Part shown: one piece after another, positions 3,163 to 10,486 of the stretch
Layout: every line of letters begins with the position of its first letter
Position numbering within the stretch: position 1 is the first letter of the stretch
DNA from: a virus
IMG/VR virus record: IMGVR_UViG_3300042914_002369
Coordinates: 1 to 21,139 of that record
Reading direction: 5' to 3' (one strand)
Length of the DNA stretch: 21,139 bases
Made by a program: the position numbers and the translations under genes
The notes under the pieces: generated by a model
What the model was told of the DNA's origin: nothing
Database searches by the model: none
The model's input: only the letters and a program-made list of their open reading frames with translations

Positions 3163-5109
3163 ATGAGCGTGCTGTGGGTTGATTTTGAAACGCGCAGCCG
3201 CTGTGACCTGACAACCAAAGGTGTGTACAACTACGCGCAAGACGGCAGCACGGACGTCTTGTGCATGTCGTATGCGTTCGACGATAATGAGGTCGTGACG
3301 TGGACGCCCGATCAGTCGTTCCCCGAGGCCGTGCGCCAACACAAGGGTCAGATACGCGCACATAATGCGACCTTCGAGCGTCTGATTTTCTGGTACGTCT
3401 TGCAGATCAACTTCGATCTTGAGCAGTTCTATTGCACTGCAACACAGGCGCGTGCTAACTGTGCGCCAGGGTCGCTTGAGGACGTGGGGCGGTTTGCTAG
3501 CGCAGACATGCGTAAGGACTACCGTGGGGCGCAACTGATAAGGCGGCTATGTATGCCGCAGGCAGACGGCAAGTTTTGCCAAGACGCGGCACTTTTTGCC
3601 GAGATGGTGGCCTACTGTGAACAAGACGTTCGCGCCATGCGAGCCATCTCCAAGGCCATGCGCGACCTATCAGCCGAAGAACTAGCTGACTACCATGTGA
3701 ATGAGCGCATCAACGACCGTGGTGTGCTGGTGGACGTGGCGTTGTGTAAGGCAGCGGTGCAGTACGCAAGCGATGAGTTAGTCGAGATCGAGCAGATCGT
3801 GGCTGACGTGACGCAGGGCGCGATTGCGAGCGTGCGTAGCCCTAAGATGAAGCAGTGGGTCATGGACCGCGTAGGACCGCAGGCGCTGGCGCTCATGGCG
3901 TCTTATAAGGACGGCGAGAAGAAGTATTCCATCGATAAGACCGTGCGAGCTAACTTGCTTGCGATGGACGATCCTGAGCAGGTGCCACCGGATGTCGCAG
4001 AAGTCATCCAGTGCGCTGACGATCTGTGGGCGTCGTCAGTTGCGAAGTTCAGCCGCCTAGCTGCGCTTGCTGATGATGAGGATCATCGGGTGCGTGGTGC
4101 GTTCGTATTTGCTGGCGGCTCGGCCACGGGTCGTGCGTCGTCTTACGGGGCACAAGTTCACAATTTCACGCGCAAGTGTGCGGATGACCCCGAGGCTGTG
4201 CGTCACGCGATGGTGCGCGGCCATAAGATCGTGCCGACCTACGGGCGACGCGTCACAGACGTGCTCAAGGGGATGCTGCGCCCTGCGCTGACGCCTGCGC
4301 CTGGGCATGTGCTCGTCGTAGCCGATTGGGCGGCGATCGAGGCGCGGATGAACCCGTGGCTGTCAGCGCACGCTACGTCTGAGGCTAAGTTGGACTTGTT
4401 TCGCACGGGCGCAGACATCTACAAACACAACGCCAGCCGGACGTTTAACGTGCCTGTTGACGCGATCGATAAAGAACAGCGGCAGATCGGGAAGACCCAA
4501 GAATTAGCCTGTGGTTACGGTGGTGGCGTGAGTGCGTTTGCTTCAATGGGGCGCATTTATGGCGTTAACTTACCAGAAGCTGATAGCAGGCGCATGGTGG
4601 ACGCGTGGCGACGCGCTAACCCGTGGGCTGTGCATTACTGGCAGGCGCTTGAGTCGGCGTATACGCGTGCGATGAGGAACCCAAAGTCTGAGTTTAAGGC
4701 TGGCCGTGTGACTTACTATTTTGATGGTCAGCACCTATGGTACGCGCTGCCGTCAGGACGCATCCTATGCTACCCCTACGCTCGCATGGACGCTGATGGT
4801 GTGTCTTATGCCAAGGCGTCATGGAAACCCGCGCAGGACGCCAAGGAATGGCCTCGTGCGCGGTTGTGGAAGGGTCTAGCGGCAGAGAACATCTGCCAAG
4901 CTGCGGCTAACGACATCTTGCGTGCGTCGCTGCGCCAACTCGACGGCGTGGTGTTGCACGTCCATGATGAGATTGTGCTTGAGGTGCCAGCGTCGCAGGC
5001 TGACGAAGCCGCGCAGGCGCTGCACCGCGTGATGTGCTCACCGCCTGCCTGGGCGCAGGGGTTACCTTTAGATGCTGAAGTTTCAACAATGGAGCGTTAC
5101 GGAAAATGA
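3163..5109 (+). CDS. polA: Family A DNA polymerase with 3'-5' exonuclease domain
   Basis: A 648-aa phage replicative DNA polymerase. The N-terminal DnaQ-like proofreading domain has Exo I in WVDFET (Asp7, Glu9), Exo II in HNATFERLI (about 67-75) and Exo III in YCEQD (Tyr151, Asp155). There is no 5' nuclease domain. The polymerase domain has TGRASS (about 322-327), motif A VADWAAIEAR (Asp388), motif B RQIGK..ELACGYG (Arg440, Lys444, Tyr452) and motif C HVHDEIVLEV (His601, Asp602, Glu603), so all catalytic residues are present. By the spacing R-x3-K-x3-L-x3-YG, the residue equivalent to E. coli Pol I Phe762 is Leu448. It overlaps the primase gene by ATGA. Family assignment is secure. Confidence 0.96.
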   Translation: MSVLWVDFETRSRCDLTTKGVYNYAQDGSTDVLCMSYAFDDNEVVTWTPDQSFPEAVRQHKGQIRAHNATFERLIFWYVLQINFDLEQFYCTATQARANCAPGSLEDVGRFASADMRKDYRGAQLIRRLCMPQADGKFCQDAALFAEMVAYCEQDVRAMRAISKAMRDLSAEELADYHVNERINDRGVLVDVALCKAAVQYASDELVEIEQIVADVTQGAIASVRSPKMKQWVMDRVGPQALALMASYKDGEKKYSIDKTVRANLLAMDDPEQVPPDVAEVIQCADDLWASSVAKFSRLAALADDEDHRVRGAFVFAGGSATGRASSYGAQVHNFTRKCADDPEAVRHAMVRGHKIVPTYGRRVTDVLKGMLRPALTPAPGHVLVVADWAAIEARMNPWLSAHATSEAKLDLFRTGADIYKHNASRTFNVPVDAIDKEQRQIGKTQELACGYGGGVSAFASMGRIYGVNLPEADSRRMVDAWRRANPWAVHYWQALESAYTRAMRNPKSEFKAGRVTYYFDGQHLWYALPSGRILCYPYARMDADGVSYAKASWKPAQDAKEWPRARLWKGLAAENICQAAANDILRASLRQLDGVVLHVHDEIVLEVPASQADEAAQALHRVMCSPPAWAQGLPLDAEVSTMERYGK

Positions 5110-7409
5110 CAACATTTATTGATTTTTTAATGTCCCTTGCACCAGAGGGCGAGACAGCGCTGCTGGTGCGACAAAAGCCGCTACTGAAAGACGGTCAATT
5201 GCAATTCCACGCTGACGGCGCGATCAAGTGTACGTGGCCTGCTTATCTGCCCAAGGACGCCAAGATCAAGGCCGATCAGGCTTGGTACGGCAACACAGCA
5301 TCGTTTATTGTCGATCGGTTCGGTGAGCACGTCTCAGCGTCAACGGCTAACTGTGAGTATTGCTTGGTGATGGTGCTTGATGACGTGGGCACTAAGAGTA
5401 AGACACCACCGCTTGCGCCGACGTGGGTGATGGAGACCTCGCCTGGTTCCTTCCAGTGGGGCTACGCCTTTGCTGAACAGCCTACCAAGGGTGAATTCGC
5501 TGCGGCCATGCGTGCGATCGCTGATGCAGGCTACACCGACCCTGGGGCGCTTAACTCGGTACGCAATTTTCGCTTACCTGGCTCGGTCAATCTCAAGCCT
5601 GGTCGCAACAGTTTTGCATCGCGCTTGGTCGAGTTTCATCCAGAGCGTGACTTCTCGCTCGCTCAGATATGTGAGGCGCTGGGCGTGTCGCCTGCTGAAG
5701 CTGATGGCGCAGGTCCACAGCCGATCAAGATCGTTGACACCGGTAACGATGATGTGTTCGCGTGGCTCGCCTCGCAGGGTCTTGTCGTATCTAAACCCAA
5801 CGCTGAGGGCTGGGCGGGTGTCATCTGCCCTAACCATGCTCAACACACGGACGGTAATCCAGAGGGGCGCTATAAGCCTTCCATGCGTGCGTACTGTTGT
5901 TTACACTCGCACTGCGTCGATCTTGACACCAAGGCTTTCTTGGCGTGGGTCGCTGAGAACGGCGGGCCTGCTCACGCGCTGGGGCTGCGCGATGATCTGC
6001 TGGCGAGCACTATGCAGAATACGCTTGAGAAGTTGGAGCCAAGCACCTTTTTTAGTGACGACGCCAAGAAACTGATCGAAGAGGTCGAGCGTAAAGAGCT
6101 TGGGCGTGTCGAGATGAAGGGCTGGTTTCAACGCTTTGCTTACATTCTCAGTGATGACTCGTTTTTTGATATGCAGGATCGGCGCGAAGTGCCGCGCTGG
6201 GTCTTTAACGCGCTCTATCGCCATGTCAATTGCGTATCCATCAACAGCAAACGCAAGATCGAAGCTGCAACGTGTTTCGATGAGCAGCGTCAGGCGATGG
6301 GTGCTCGCACCTTGGTCGGTGTGACCTACGCTGCAGGCGAGTCGATGCTGGTGACGCGCGATGGTGACGTGTACGGCAACCGTTGGCGCGATGCGCGGCC
6401 TGCGGTCGATAAAACGCTTGTGCGCGATATATCGCCTTGGCTTGAGCACTGCGAGCGCCTGGTGCCTGATGTAACCGAGCGTGAGCACTTGTTTAACATC
6501 ATGGCTTTTAAGCTTCAGCATCCTGATGTCAAGATCAATCACGCCGTGCTGCATGGCGGCGATCAAGGCTGTGGTAAAGACACCATGTGGGCGCCGCTTT
6601 TATGGGCCGTGTGCGGTCCAGGGCTGAAGAACAGGGGTTTGCTCGATAACGATACCTTAAACCTCCAGTGGGGCTATCAGCTTGAGTGTGAGATTCTCGT
6701 CATCAACGAGTTGAAAGAACCTGAAGCGGCAGCGCGTCGCGCACTGGCTAACCGCCTTAAACCGATCATCGCTGCACCTCCAGAGATGCTACCGATTAAC
6801 CGCAAGGGCTTGCACCCCTACGACATGCTCAATAGGATGTTCGTGCTGTCGTTTACCAATGATTCGCTCCCCATATCGCTTGACTCGCAGGATCGGCGTT
6901 GGTTCTGTATATGGTCGCGTGCACCTAGGATGGTCGATCGCCAGGCGCAACTATTGTGGGATTGGTACAAGTCCGAAGGCTTCGTTTCCATAGCCGCATG
7001 GCTCTATCAGCGCGACGTGAGCGCGTTTAATCCGGCTGCAACGCCAGGTTGGACCGAATTCAAATTCAATCTTATTGAGCACTCCATGAGCACCTCTGAG
7101 TCTTTTCTGGTCGAAATGATGCGTAACCGTCAAGGTGAGTTTAGCCGTGGTGTGGTGGGGTCGCCCTTCCATCTATTGATTGATCGCCTATCAGGTGGCT
7201 TGCCTGCTGGCGTGAAAATCCATCAGTCAGCGCTGCTCCATGCGCTCAAGGAGGCAGGTTGGGTTGACGTGGGTCGGTTAGCGTCATCTGAGTTTCAGAC
7301 CAAGAAGCATATCTTCGCCGTGTCTGAATTGGCGTCCAAGCTGTCGAAATCAGAGCTTAGGCGTATGGTCGAGGAGACAGCGCCAACGAAAATGGCGCTG
7401 GTCAAGTAG
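5106..7409 (+). CDS. Primase-polymerase / SF3-type replicative helicase
   Basis: A 767-aa bifunctional replication protein. The N-terminal region resembles archaeo-eukaryotic (RepB-type) primases: VMVLDDVG (Asp92, Asp93), TSPGSFQWGY (111-120) and RNFRLPGSVNLKPG (from about 153). A Cys/His cluster follows near 241-275 (CPNHAQH, then CCLHSHC), likely zinc-binding as in primase-helicase linkers. The C-terminal ATPase has Walker A GGDQGCGKDT (about 484-493), a Walker B-like ILVINELKE (about 528-536) and a sensor region SFTNDSLPISLDSQDRRWF, typical of DUF5906/D5-like helicases. It should prime and unwind DNA for the upstream polymerase, whose stop it overlaps. It is the last gene of the rightward operon. 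Domain architecture is well supported; oligomeric state and origin recognition are unknown. Confidence 0.92.
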   Translation: MTTFIDFLMSLAPEGETALLVRQKPLLKDGQLQFHADGAIKCTWPAYLPKDAKIKADQAWYGNTASFIVDRFGEHVSASTANCEYCLVMVLDDVGTKSKTPPLAPTWVMETSPGSFQWGYAFAEQPTKGEFAAAMRAIADAGYTDPGALNSVRNFRLPGSVNLKPGRNSFASRLVEFHPERDFSLAQICEALGVSPAEADGAGPQPIKIVDTGNDDVFAWLASQGLVVSKPNAEGWAGVICPNHAQHTDGNPEGRYKPSMRAYCCLHSHCVDLDTKAFLAWVAENGGPAHALGLRDDLLASTMQNTLEKLEPSTFFSDDAKKLIEEVERKELGRVEMKGWFQRFAYILSDDSFFDMQDRREVPRWVFNALYRHVNCVSINSKRKIEAATCFDEQRQAMGARTLVGVTYAAGESMLVTRDGDVYGNRWRDARPAVDKTLVRDISPWLEHCERLVPDVTEREHLFNIMAFKLQHPDVKINHAVLHGGDQGCGKDTMWAPLLWAVCGPGLKNRGLLDNDTLNLQWGYQLECEILVINELKEPEAAARRALANRLKPIIAAPPEMLPINRKGLHPYDMLNRMFVLSFTNDSLPISLDSQDRRWFCIWSRAPRMVDRQAQLLWDWYKSEGFVSIAAWLYQRDVSAFNPAATPGWTEFKFNLIEHSMSTSESFLVEMMRNRQGEFSRGVVGSPFHLLIDRLSGGLPAGVKIHQSALLHALKEAGWVDVGRLASSEFQTKKHIFAVSELASKLSKSELRRMVEETAPTKMALVK

Positions 7410-8041: not shown

Positions 8042-8751
8042 ACGTGCGCTGCCGCCTTGCCATGCGCGATTATGGCAATAGATACTGCATCGGGTTTAAG
8101 CGCACCGTCGCAAGCTTGGCACGTGATGCACTGGCGCCGATTGCCGCCTTCGGGAGACGCTGGGCAGTAGATTTCTTTATCAAGCTTAGGCGTGGCACTG
8201 ATTGCGATAACGCGGAAGGTGCGCCACCCCATAGCGCGTGCGACGTCGCGATCTTCGATCGAATCAGCGCTTGCCATGCATAACTCACGATGAGCTTGCG
8301 CAAAGGGTTGGCGCCATTGATGAGAATATCCGGTCCAACTATCAGCGTTAATTAACAGCGCGTACCAGACATCGTGCGGAATCATTGCTGGATCGCCGTA
8401 GGCGCCTAGTCTGACCTTGCGACCTTTCAGCTGTGCAGCTGCATGACTAAGATTGCGCGACATGTCGGGATAACTGCCGCGCTTGAAAGCTTTATAGATC
8501 GCACTAACAGACTTGCCAACGTCGACGTAGCAAGTGCGCTTGCGCTTATCATCGCCACGATGCACGCACGCGCCACAGATGCTAACGTCGTCAGCTGATT
8601 TAATAGCATCTAATGGATGCATGTCCGATCGCAAAATATAGGTTTGGACCATGTCGCCAGTCTTTACGTTCTTAGAACGAAGAACGGCAATACCGACAAT
8701 TGGCGCCGCATCGATCGGCGATTTCCCACGATAAAAGATAAATCCACGCAT
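8038..8751 (-). CDS. Conserved Cys-rich phage protein of unknown function
   Basis: A 237-aa protein of a type I recognise as recurring in phages without a known function. Two cysteine clusters are visible: CGACVHRG...RTC (59, 62, 74) and YCPASPEGGNRRQCITCQAC (196, 208, 211, 214), suggesting zinc ribbons or an Fe-S site. Conserved-looking core stretches are VRLGAYGDPAMIPHDVW (from about 113), WTGYSHQWR (about 139-147) and ADSIEDRDVARAMGWRTFR. The start at 8751 has AAGGGGA 6 nt upstream and skips 20 unlikely residues of a longer frame. It is the first gene of the leftward operon, and a TTGSCAA site lies over its ribosome-binding region. A metal-dependent role in DNA metabolism is conceivable, without direct evidence. 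Confidence 0.82.
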   Translation of the reverse strand: MRGFIFYRGKSPIDAAPIVGIAVLRSKNVKTGDMVQTYILRSDMHPLDAIKSADDVSICGACVHRGDDKRKRTCYVDVGKSVSAIYKAFKRGSYPDMSRNLSHAAAQLKGRKVRLGAYGDPAMIPHDVWYALLINADSWTGYSHQWRQPFAQAHRELCMASADSIEDRDVARAMGWRTFRVIAISATPKLDKEIYCPASPEGGNRRQCITCQACDGALKPDAVSIAIIAHGKAAAHV

Positions 8752-8782
8752 TGGCAATCCCCTTTTGGTTGTTTGAGCGTTC

Positions 8783-8811
8783 AGTGTAAGACATTCTTTT
8801 GTAGATTGCAA
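8783..8811 (-). promoter_or_regulatory. Candidate leftward promoter of the Cys-rich protein operon
   Basis: Minus-strand TTGCAA (8811-8806) and TACACT (8788-8783) with a 17-nt spacer, each matching 4 of 6 consensus positions. Transcription would start near 8776, about 25 nt before the ATG at 8751. TTGSCAA sites flank it at 8825-8831 (just upstream of -35) and 8751-8757 (leader). Confidence 0.35.
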
Positions 8812-9091
8812 AGTATGGGTCGAATTGGCAATTAAATTTTATAGCGATGGCAATGGAAAAAGGGAGAATTGCCAATGAGCGGGGACTGTAAGCGTCTGAT
8901 TCGATGAGGCTTTCTCGGCTATTGGCAAAATTGTCATCGTTTTTTTGAAAAAAAGAGGGGGGGTGATGTATGTTAGTCGGCGTCGACTTAAAAAGGCTGA
9001 CAATTTTGCCAATATTGCCAAGGTTTTGGCCCCGATGAGGGACGCCAAATCACCGCGCCAAACCTCTCTTTGACGGTTTTCTCTCCAATCA

Positions 9092-9134
9092 TTGGCAATC
9101 TTGGCAATGGCAAACGAATTGCCAAGATTGCCAA
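9092..9134. repeat. 17-bp perfect inverted repeat made of four TTGSCAA sites
   Basis: Positions 9092-9108 and 9118-9134 are perfect reverse complements separated by a 9-nt loop (GGCAAACGA). Each arm contains two heptamers spaced 9 bp. It could extrude as a hairpin or hold paired protein dimers. A second, imperfect copy pairs 9149-9164 with 9186-9201 (one mismatch). Confidence 0.85.
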
Positions 9135-9383
9135 ACATCAAAGGGCTATTGGCACTCTTGGCAACATAAAAACCAATTGCCAATCTTGCCAAGATTGCCA
9201 ATGTCACACCGACCCCGACCCCGATCGACCACGCACCAGGCACGCGCTGCCAGGCACATACCGTTATGCCGATTAGATCGGTCATCGTTCTGTTTGCTAG
9301 ATCGCTTTTTGCAGTTGGCTTTTTGCTGGCAAAGCCCCCCCCAGGGCCGACGGCCTGGCCGGTCAGGGCCGGTGGGTCCACAA

Positions 9384-9440
9384 GAAATTTTTTTATTTTT
9401 ACCAGCCATCAATCTAAAATTTTTTTTTTATTTTTAAAAA
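9384..9440. other. AT-rich T-tract stretch, possible DNA unwinding element
   Basis: Two T-tract blocks, T7-A-T5 (9388-9400) and T10-A-T5 followed by A5 (9420-9440), flank a mixed AT-rich segment. This is by far the most AT-rich part of the intergenic region and lies beside GC-rich palindromes (about 9335-9380) and the TTGSCAA cluster. The arrangement resembles an unwinding element next to iterons, but no function is proven. Confidence 0.45.
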
Positions 9441-9505
9441 TCCAACACGCCTATACAAAAGTATTAGAATCCCTTACGCTTAGGTCATCTTGGTAAAATT
9501 GGCAT

Positions 9506-9964
9506 ATGTTTAAAAGTCTTCCTCTTACAACGCGTGAGATCAAAGCGACCGAAGCGGTACTGGAGCGTATATACGACGCTGCGTATCTAGGTTTGAAAGA
9601 AGATTCGTTGGCGTTAGCAGCAGGGTTGTTACCTGTAGAGTACCGGCTCTTGAAACAGCATGACAAACTTGCCGAGATTGCCGAACTCAAGGGACGCGCT
9701 GATAGTGAGCGCGAGCACAGCCAGCACATGTTGAACGCAGCGCGGCAAGGCGACGCTAAGGCGGCGCTAGAGATACTGAAGCACACGCATGGTTGGGTCG
9801 CCAAGCAGGCGGTGAGTATTGAGGTGGACCAGCGCATCAGCGTGATCGACGCGCTCAGAGCGGCGGAGACACGCGTTGATGAGAATAAAGTGATTGACCT
9901 AATACCAGAAAGCGAACCGCATATAAATATACCCAAGATAGAAAATAAACAGACTGTGGGGTAA
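9506..9964 (+). CDS. terS: Terminase small subunit
   Basis: A 152-aa protein with the features of podovirus-type small terminases, which recognise the packaging site and load the large subunit. An N-terminal helix-turn-helix-like segment (LERIYDAAYLGLKEDSLALA, then AGLLPVEYRLL) is followed by a conserved helical stretch, LKGRADSEREHSQHMLNAA with DAKAALEILKHTHGWV, and a charged C-terminus. Its place directly before the large terminase, apart from an inserted HNH gene, supports the call. The ATG at 9506 lacks a Shine-Dalgarno site. Two degenerate TTGSCAA sites (9490, 9499) abut it, so the gene may be translated from a short leader or controlled through these sites. Confidence 0.8.
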   Translation: MFKSLPLTTREIKATEAVLERIYDAAYLGLKEDSLALAAGLLPVEYRLLKQHDKLAEIAELKGRADSEREHSQHMLNAARQGDAKAALEILKHTHGWVAKQAVSIEVDQRISVIDALRAAETRVDENKVIDLIPESEPHINIPKIENKQTVG

Positions 9965-9970
9965 TTGGTG

Positions 9971-9976
9971 TATAAT
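9971..9976 (+). promoter_or_regulatory. Consensus TATAAT -10 box before the HNH gene
   Basis: A perfect TATAAT sits 7 nt after the terS stop, with no good -35 hexamer at 16-18 nt. Transcription from here would start near 9983 and reach the HNH gene at 9998. Free-standing homing endonucleases often carry their own promoter. It could also be chance. Confidence 0.3.
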
Positions 9977-9997
9977 GTTGCTTTATTGGAGGAACCA

Positions 9998-10486
9998 ATG
10001 GCAAAAGCAACATTAAGCGACCGTTTTTGGGAGAAAGTTGATAAGCGCGGCCCAAACGATTGTTGGCTTTGGACGGCCACAAAAACTAGTTTTGGGTACG
10101 GCAGCTTTCGTATGGGTAGCTTGACCGATGGGACACGGCGCAAAGAGATGGCGCACCGCATAGCGTATACGTTAGCCACTGGCGAACAAATACCTAAAGG
10201 TAAAGTTGTCATGCACTTTTGCGACAACCCTACTTGCGTAAACCCTGCTCACTTAAGTATTGGTACATACAGCGAGAATGGCAAAGCCGCTTACGATCGT
10301 AATCGCCGCGTATCAACGATAAAACCAGGCGAAGATAGCCCTCGCGCTAAGTTAACGGTTGAGCAGGTTGAATATATTCGTGCAGTCGGTAAGCAGCGTA
10401 CTTTGCGTGATCTAGCAGTTGAATTTAACGTCAGCCGGTCTACGATTGATGCGGTTAGACGCGGTGTAAATTGGAAGGAAATGTAA
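9998..10486 (+). CDS. HNH homing endonuclease with C-terminal HTH
   Basis: A 162-aa free-standing HNH_3-type endonuclease, a selfish gene that cuts related genomes at its insertion site. The catalytic fold is visible as MAHRIAYTLATGEQIPKG, then VMHFCDNPTCVNPAHLSIGT (His73, Cys75 and Cys80, His85) and YSENGKAAYDRNR. The C-terminus has a DNA-binding module of the resolvase-like HTH type, AKLTVEQVEYIRAV followed by LRDLAVEFNVSRSTIDAVRR. GGAGGA 4 nt before ATG 9998 decides this start over an earlier in-frame codon at 9965. The gene separates the two terminase genes and ends directly before the TTG start of terL. Confidence 0.92.
   Translation: MAKATLSDRFWEKVDKRGPNDCWLWTATKTSFGYGSFRMGSLTDGTRRKEMAHRIAYTLATGEQIPKGKVVMHFCDNPTCVNPAHLSIGTYSENGKAAYDRNRRVSTIKPGEDSPRAKLTVEQVEYIRAVGKQRTLRDLAVEFNVSRSTIDAVRRGVNWKEM

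Follow-up and report, generated by a model that had tools for sequence, protein, structure and literature searches.

A phased iteron array as the proposed replication origin of an epsilon15-like podovirus, and its covariation with the wing of the phage primase-helicase

Introduction

A freshwater phage carries a dense array of TTGSCAA heptamers between divergent genes, and the question was what this array does and which protein reads it. The window (the whole stretch of DNA that was analyzed) is a 21,139-base IMG/VR virus record and is probably a fragment. TerL places the phage near the epsilon15/phiV10-like podoviruses (about 37-38% identity), and the nearest named records by TerL are Phage DSL-LC05 and MW202483 (about 70%). 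A hint to the host came from a single MAG contig labelled "uncultured proteobacterium". The reading reached here, with a probability of about 85%, is that the array is the replication origin of this epsilon15-like podovirus and that its iterons are bound by the winged helix of the primase-helicase that the phage itself encodes, the letters being read by the wing at residues 726-732.

Gene Order Around the Array

The rightward genes were, in order, a DUF2800 exonuclease, a 217-aa protein (the protein in its position in OR003940 carries an SSB annotation), a family A DNA polymerase and the primase-helicase. Short leftward genes followed, the last of which was the phrog_2554 gene, and then the array. 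To the right of the array, the rightward genes resumed with a TerS-like gene, an HNH endonuclease, TerL and the portal. The TerS identity was based on the position beside TerL and on how the gene in the equivalent position of OR003940 is annotated. The placement between divergent genes claimed by the first-pass annotation was thereby confirmed. The genes needed for the argument are as follows.

5106-7409, plus strand: primase-helicase, 767 aa, proposed origin-binding initiator, with a RepB_primase-like N part, a DUF5906/D5-type helicase and a C-terminal winged helix
8038-8811, minus strand: phrog_2554 gene of unknown function, left flank of the array
9506-9964, plus strand: TerS-like gene, right flank of the array

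The HNH endonuclease gene (9965-10486 in the window), which separates TerS from TerL, occurred in the window and also in L048, L061 and L074 (loci are given by L numbers). It was absent from most close relatives, where the end of TerS also differs, and it looks like a recent homing-endonuclease insertion.

The Iteron Array in the Window

The exact copies of TTGSCAA started at 8751, 8825, 8869, 8922, 9006, 9015, 9092, 9101, 9119, 9128, 9158, 9177, 9186 and 9195. These 14 copies in 8751-9201 compare with a mean of 0.5 expected under a dinucleotide-Markov model of the region, in which the maximum in 5000 trials was 5; the dense array described in the first-pass annotation was therefore real. The window as a whole held 22 copies against 4.9 expected, a count reached in none of 100 shuffles. 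One-mismatch copies were also located inside the array at 8847, 9107 and 9149. The repeats and the neighboring AT-rich tract are listed below without strand.

8751-9201: iteron array, proposed replication origin core, with 14 exact TTGSCAA, many as 9-bp-phased tandem pairs or triplets
9006-9021: 9-bp-phased iteron pair TTGCCAATATTGCCAA, nearly invariant among close relatives
9092-9134: two 9-bp-phased iteron pairs of opposite orientation, TTGGCAA at 9092/9101 and TTGCCAA at 9119/9128
9177-9201: 9-bp-phased iteron triplet TTGCCAATCTTGCCAAGATTGCCAA
9386-9440: AT-rich tract, candidate DNA unwinding element, AAATTTTTTTATTTTT ... TTTTTTTTTATTTTTAAAAA
9490-9505: two degenerate copies, TTGGTAA and TTGGCAT, directly ahead of the TerS-like start codon and retained in close relatives

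The exact 9-bp phasing claimed earlier was reproduced at 9006/9015, 9092/9101, 9119/9128 and 9177/9186/9195. It did not hold at 9149/9158, which is one exact copy plus TTGGCAC (at 9149), or at 9490/9499, where both members are one-mismatch copies, so that the exact array ends at 9201. A general mark of iteron origins, namely short tandem or phased repeats packed into a small non-coding stretch, was thus present in the window. The signal had also been assigned to the DNA level, and this assignment was borne out. The open reading frames crossing the array did not keep to one strand: in relatives, members of the matching family lay on the minus strand in 15 cases and on the plus strand in 14, which is the pattern that DNA repeats give. 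The array region differed between relatives by indels.

Before the AT-rich tract at 9386-9440 came a G/C-rich block (about 9335-9385). The core of the tract was conserved among close relatives, but in the wider group only 47 of 172 loci contained AGAAATTTTT (0.9 expected). The G/C block folded no better than its shuffles, and neither a Rho-independent terminator nor a strong hairpin was found in it. Upstream of TerS in L218-L241, a G-run plus TAGGGCCTTGGGG...GACGATGGTGTCAGAAGAAATTTTT block was strongly conserved downstream of the iterons, and a related block occupied 9335-9440 of the window.

Conservation, Motif Change and Phase in Relatives

About 35 relatives whose primases had 82% identity or more carried the TTGSCAA array in the corresponding position. 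Conservation in relatives and the density of the heptamer elsewhere had been proposed as checks; the array was kept in relatives, and TTGSCAA was not dense in the rest of the window or in two motif-bearing relatives. Below this primase identity TTGSCAA was mostly gone, although L175 retained it. In more distant relatives the same place was occupied by dense arrays of other 8-9-mers, including TTGTCCACA, TTGCCCACA, TTCGGTCAT and TGACTACA. Further array motifs at this place were TGACCGAA, TGACCTAA, GTGGACAA, GTGGGCAA, ATTGTCA, ATGACCCA, GCTAGGGGC and more. A BLASTN search of the array itself against phages gave no match.

The phase was maintained while the letters changed. Among 113 non-redundant loci, a same-strand spacing of 9 bp accounted for 425 gaps, compared with 53 for the next value, 8. 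A 9-bp pair was present in 93 of the 113 loci, and this spacing dominated most motif classes, with a few classes using 7, 8 or 10. In L098, L099, L106 and L114, 7-bp-phased GCTAGGGGC/GCTAACAGC arrays replaced the 9-bp phase, and the wings were AS[SN]DY[PS]N.

Other repeats were observed in the course of the survey. Microsatellite-like tandem arrays (GACC, CCGACCGC, GACCGCTC; periods 4-11) stood to the right of the iterons in L036, L046, L056, L059 and L116, and close relatives differed greatly in the length of these arrays. Runs of the same kind built from other units occurred in L133, L156, L160 and L177. Short triple TTGSCAA runs with a 9-bp period were also present among L005-L035 in contigs where no relative of this primase was found in the stretch examined, and several of these had near-identical flanks (e.g., L006, L009, L011, L014, L015, L022, L029). 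The matches of the triple-heptamer scan in viral contigs were not counted as support for the array because, besides L020 and L034, no primase relative was encoded in the stretch examined and the runs were mostly short.

The Primase-Helicase and Its Predicted Winged Helix

The primase part of the primase-helicase gave a weak RepB_primase match. The helicase region matched the PDB primase chains 6k9c/6k9e, which we take to be SaPI Rep, in a single weak hit over residues 464-602 (E 0.0013). The C-terminal domain was modeled with AlphaFold2 from the last 180 residues (mean pLDDT 76) and the last 95 residues (mean pLDDT 82.5). The predicted winged helix had a recognition helix at 707-716 and strands at 719-725 and 734-739. 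The loop 726-733 between these strands formed the hairpin of the wing in both models. A Foldseek search of the domain against the PDB gave no significant match, and the weak matches included many winged-helix proteins.

7152-7322, plus strand: predicted C-terminal winged-helix domain, about residues 683-739 (AlphaFold2 models)
7281-7301, plus strand: wing loop ASSEFQT, residues 726-732, proposed determinant of iteron specificity (motif covariation scans)

The recognition helix alone was rejected as the reader of the motif, as it was nearly invariant across motifs, whereas the stretch after it varied with the motif.

Covariation of the Wing with the Motif

In the discovery scan of 70 non-redundant loci, motif dissimilarity was compared with the difference in each 7-residue primase window, with whole-primase distance controlled (partial Mantel). 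The top of the 710 primase windows was ASSEFQT (726-732), with a partial r of 0.451, and the best two single columns were residues 728 and 726. The highest value in the max-window permutation was 0.298, and none of 1000 permutations reached 0.451. The best windows elsewhere in the discovery set were 0.167 for TerS and 0.261 for TerL.

A tree analysis was added because label permutation leaves some shared ancestry, and the tree was built without the C-terminal domain. R728 and the ACA-type motif agreed in 65 of the 70 discovery loci. The tree gave 11 changes of R728 and 12 of the ACA-type motif, and the phylogenetically independent pairs were 6:0. The rule was formulated as R728 if and only if an ACA/CCAC-type motif is present; it was broken in 5 of the 70 discovery loci, in some because the motif finder had caught other repeats. 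The predictions were recorded before the fresh loci were analyzed. All the fresh non-redundant loci obeyed the rule (43/43), and these do not amount to 43 independent events because many fall in two clades. Moreover, wing-overlapping windows stood at the top of 752 windows in the fresh loci, with partial r values of 0.79-0.85, whereas TerS reached at most 0.207. The best fresh window started at residue 722 (partial r 0.847), and ASSEFQT was third (0.794). Another mark of an iteron origin, a cognate initiator on the same replicon that reads the repeats, fits here by covariation only.

Near-Minimal Pairs of Primases

The primase of L175 was 63% identical to that of the window and was accompanied by the same heptamer; its wing was ASAEYMN, compared with ASSEFQT or ASAEYTT in the window clade. 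Its relatives supplied near-minimal primase pairs, in which primases with ASAEYMN, MSRDYTA and YSREYAT wings were about 96% identical overall and had different arrays. In L218, the wing ASAEYMN went with the motif TATTGSCA. The primase of L221 differed from that of L218 at 30 of 764 residues, 5 of them among the 7 of the wing, which was MSRDYTA, and the motif was ATGACTACA. The primase of L224 differed from that of L218 at 28 of 760 residues, 4 of them in the wing, which was YSREYAT, and the motif was ATTGCCTACA. The wing KSREYDS went with TTGTCCACA, in a primase 88% identical. In L218, L221 and L224 the array sites held corresponding positions with their letters replaced, while the rightward flank was almost unchanged. 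The differences of L221 and L224 from L218 were spread over much of the C-terminal domain and were not confined to the wing; hence, neighboring residues may contribute to the reading. Furthermore, distant primases with similar wings had the same motif.

Alternative Explanations

The array could be a multi-site operator with which the primase-helicase or another phage protein mainly controls the divergent leftward and rightward genes. The array does lie between divergent genes, three weak promoter-like hexamers overlap iterons against 1.3 expected, and repression of transcription may be a further role of a replication protein. Such a role is nevertheless unlikely as the main one, since the leftward genes vary between relatives while the array stays, and the covariation points to the primase-helicase as the reader. 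No gene family between primase and array was found in more than 19 of the 70 loci; no general regulator is therefore encoded there, and the "multi-operator switch" of the first-pass annotation is left without a candidate regulator. A DnaN-like sliding-clamp fragment, leftward between primase and array, was present in 19 of the 70 loci (4770-5366 of L198, from the L175 genome; homologs in L073, L082, L095, L157 and L182). The fast-evolving leftward protein of L175, tried as the reader, proved to be this DnaN-like clamp and was not general. The phrog_2554 protein was likewise set aside because it is absent from most relatives having the array.

TerS was the first suspect as reader. Its gene starts beside the array, and a TerS-bound packaging site (pac) would suit an array adjoining TerS-like and TerL genes. 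Whole-protein TerS distance also correlated with motif distance (r 0.54), probably because of linkage. Lineages that differ in motif have an identical or nearly identical TerS helix-turn-helix, so the TerS recognition residues do not fit the motif, and the best TerS windows in the discovery and fresh sets (0.167 and 0.207) compare with 0.45 and 0.85 for the primase; a pac site is accordingly very unlikely. A phage protein resembling DnaA domain IV might instead read the array, as TTGTCCACA and TTATCCACA are among the motifs that resemble diverged DnaA boxes, and a Bac_DnaA_C protein is encoded in 4 of 30 relatives and in MW202483. It is absent from the other 26, including 34-38-kb records with clear arrays, some perhaps incomplete, and the motif tracks the primase wing instead, which makes a DnaA-box origin highly improbable. 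The stand-alone DnaA domain IV-like protein (PF08299) was seen in the records of L087, L091, L095 and L109 and at 31423-31719 of L196 (MW202483), where its gene belongs to the cluster that separates primase from TerS. The chance that the array is a neutral or coding repeat with no DNA-level function is close to negligible. Open reading frames do cross the array and unrelated short tandem repeats also lie near it, but there is no consistent coding strand or frame, place and phase are strongly conserved, and the motif changes together with the wing; the fresh-locus test already contradicts this explanation.

Proposed Mechanism and Significance

For the preferred reading, an origin read by the primase-helicase, the 9-bp-phased TTGSCAA iterons would be bound by the C-terminal winged helix. 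The wing loop 726-732 would read their letters, with the recognition helix and the 9-bp phase nearly constant. Several primase-helicases would line up on the phased sites and then open the nearby AT-rich tract at 9386-9440. After opening, the helicase ring would be loaded and DNA synthesis primed, and the origin would fire. In relatives, the wing and all iterons would have switched together many times, giving separate origin-specificity types. The "replication origin with iterons" of the first-pass annotation is strongly supported through the co-change of the motif with the wing; the GC-skew switch predicted at the array was not seen in the window, full-length relatives were without a clear switch at the array, and skew gave no help in mapping the origin.

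There are about even odds for a broader proposal. The wing loop would be an interchangeable specificity element that encodes which 8-9-bp iteron the origin uses, the wing and all 10-20 sites being changed together time after time with the 9-bp phase and the remainder of the protein retained, and the family would be split into many mutually orthogonal replication-specificity types. Such a split would perhaps avoid the use of an origin by co-infecting relatives or satellites. Natural variation alone gives a residue-level initiator-origin code, with more than 100 examples and near-minimal pairs. With it one can test by what rules winged-helix primase-helicases select their origins, and in what way an origin of many sites and its reader shift specificity in step yet stay functional. 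Moreover, origin location and motif become predictable from the primase sequence in many uncultured phages.

Comparison with Known Systems

Iterons with an initiator helicase are of a known kind, whereas the rapidly switching wing-to-iteron code appears undescribed; a limited literature search found neither such a code nor fast, coordinated switching described for a family of tailed phages. The earlier remark that no described element has this exact motif holds for the letters as far as searched and fails for the kind of element, which is known from P4 crr/ori and the SaPI ori. Recognition of the array through the C-terminal domain of the primase-helicase would fit the known logic of self-loading initiators.

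Initiator-iteron specificity is among the features described for geminivirus Rep (PMC12548392, PMC10653810), which is an unrelated rolling-circle initiator of eukaryotic ssDNA viruses. In SCCmec, the isolated C-terminal domain (400-538) of Cch2 specifically binds the origin direct repeats AAGTG (PMC7581432). This is likewise a D5-type helicase, with its C-terminal domain on origin repeats as proposed for the phage protein, but it has three short iterons and a separate primase, and the repeat region is highly similar among SCCmec elements, whereas it is diversified in these phages. SaPI Rep is summarized as a self-loading initiator helicase whose C-terminal domain recognizes iterons downstream of its gene (Ubeda 2007, cited in PMC7581432). 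The C-terminal recognition of iterons by an initiator helicase would be shared, and judged from sequence the helicase regions of the phage protein and SaPI Rep may be distantly related. The phage group and genome arrangement are different, and a residue-level wing code with rapid switching was not found described in the SaPI literature searched.

The closest anatomical parallel is satellite P4, whose alpha protein is a primase-helicase with a C-terminal DNA-binding domain (1KA8). This domain binds the type 1 repeats. No homology to alpha was detectable (BLASTP E 3.7; hhalign probability 0.2%), and the claim is therefore that the phage protein works like P4 alpha, not that it is P4 alpha. The pairs in P4 ori are 10-11 bp apart, and P4 is a satellite, whereas the present array belongs to a full tailed phage and its motif has diversified over the group. 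The likenesses concern the architecture of both partners. Primase, helicase and C-terminal winged helix are joined in one chain, although here the winged helix is predicted and the primase match is weak. Immediately after the initiator gene alpha comes crr, with 8-bp repeats in both orientations. Its annotated type 1 repeats, TGTTCACA/TGTTCACC (TGTTCACC/A), include pairs 9 bp apart (4314/4323, 4494/4503), and of these TGTTCACA is similar to TTGTCCACA, the motif that goes with the KSRE class in the present phages.
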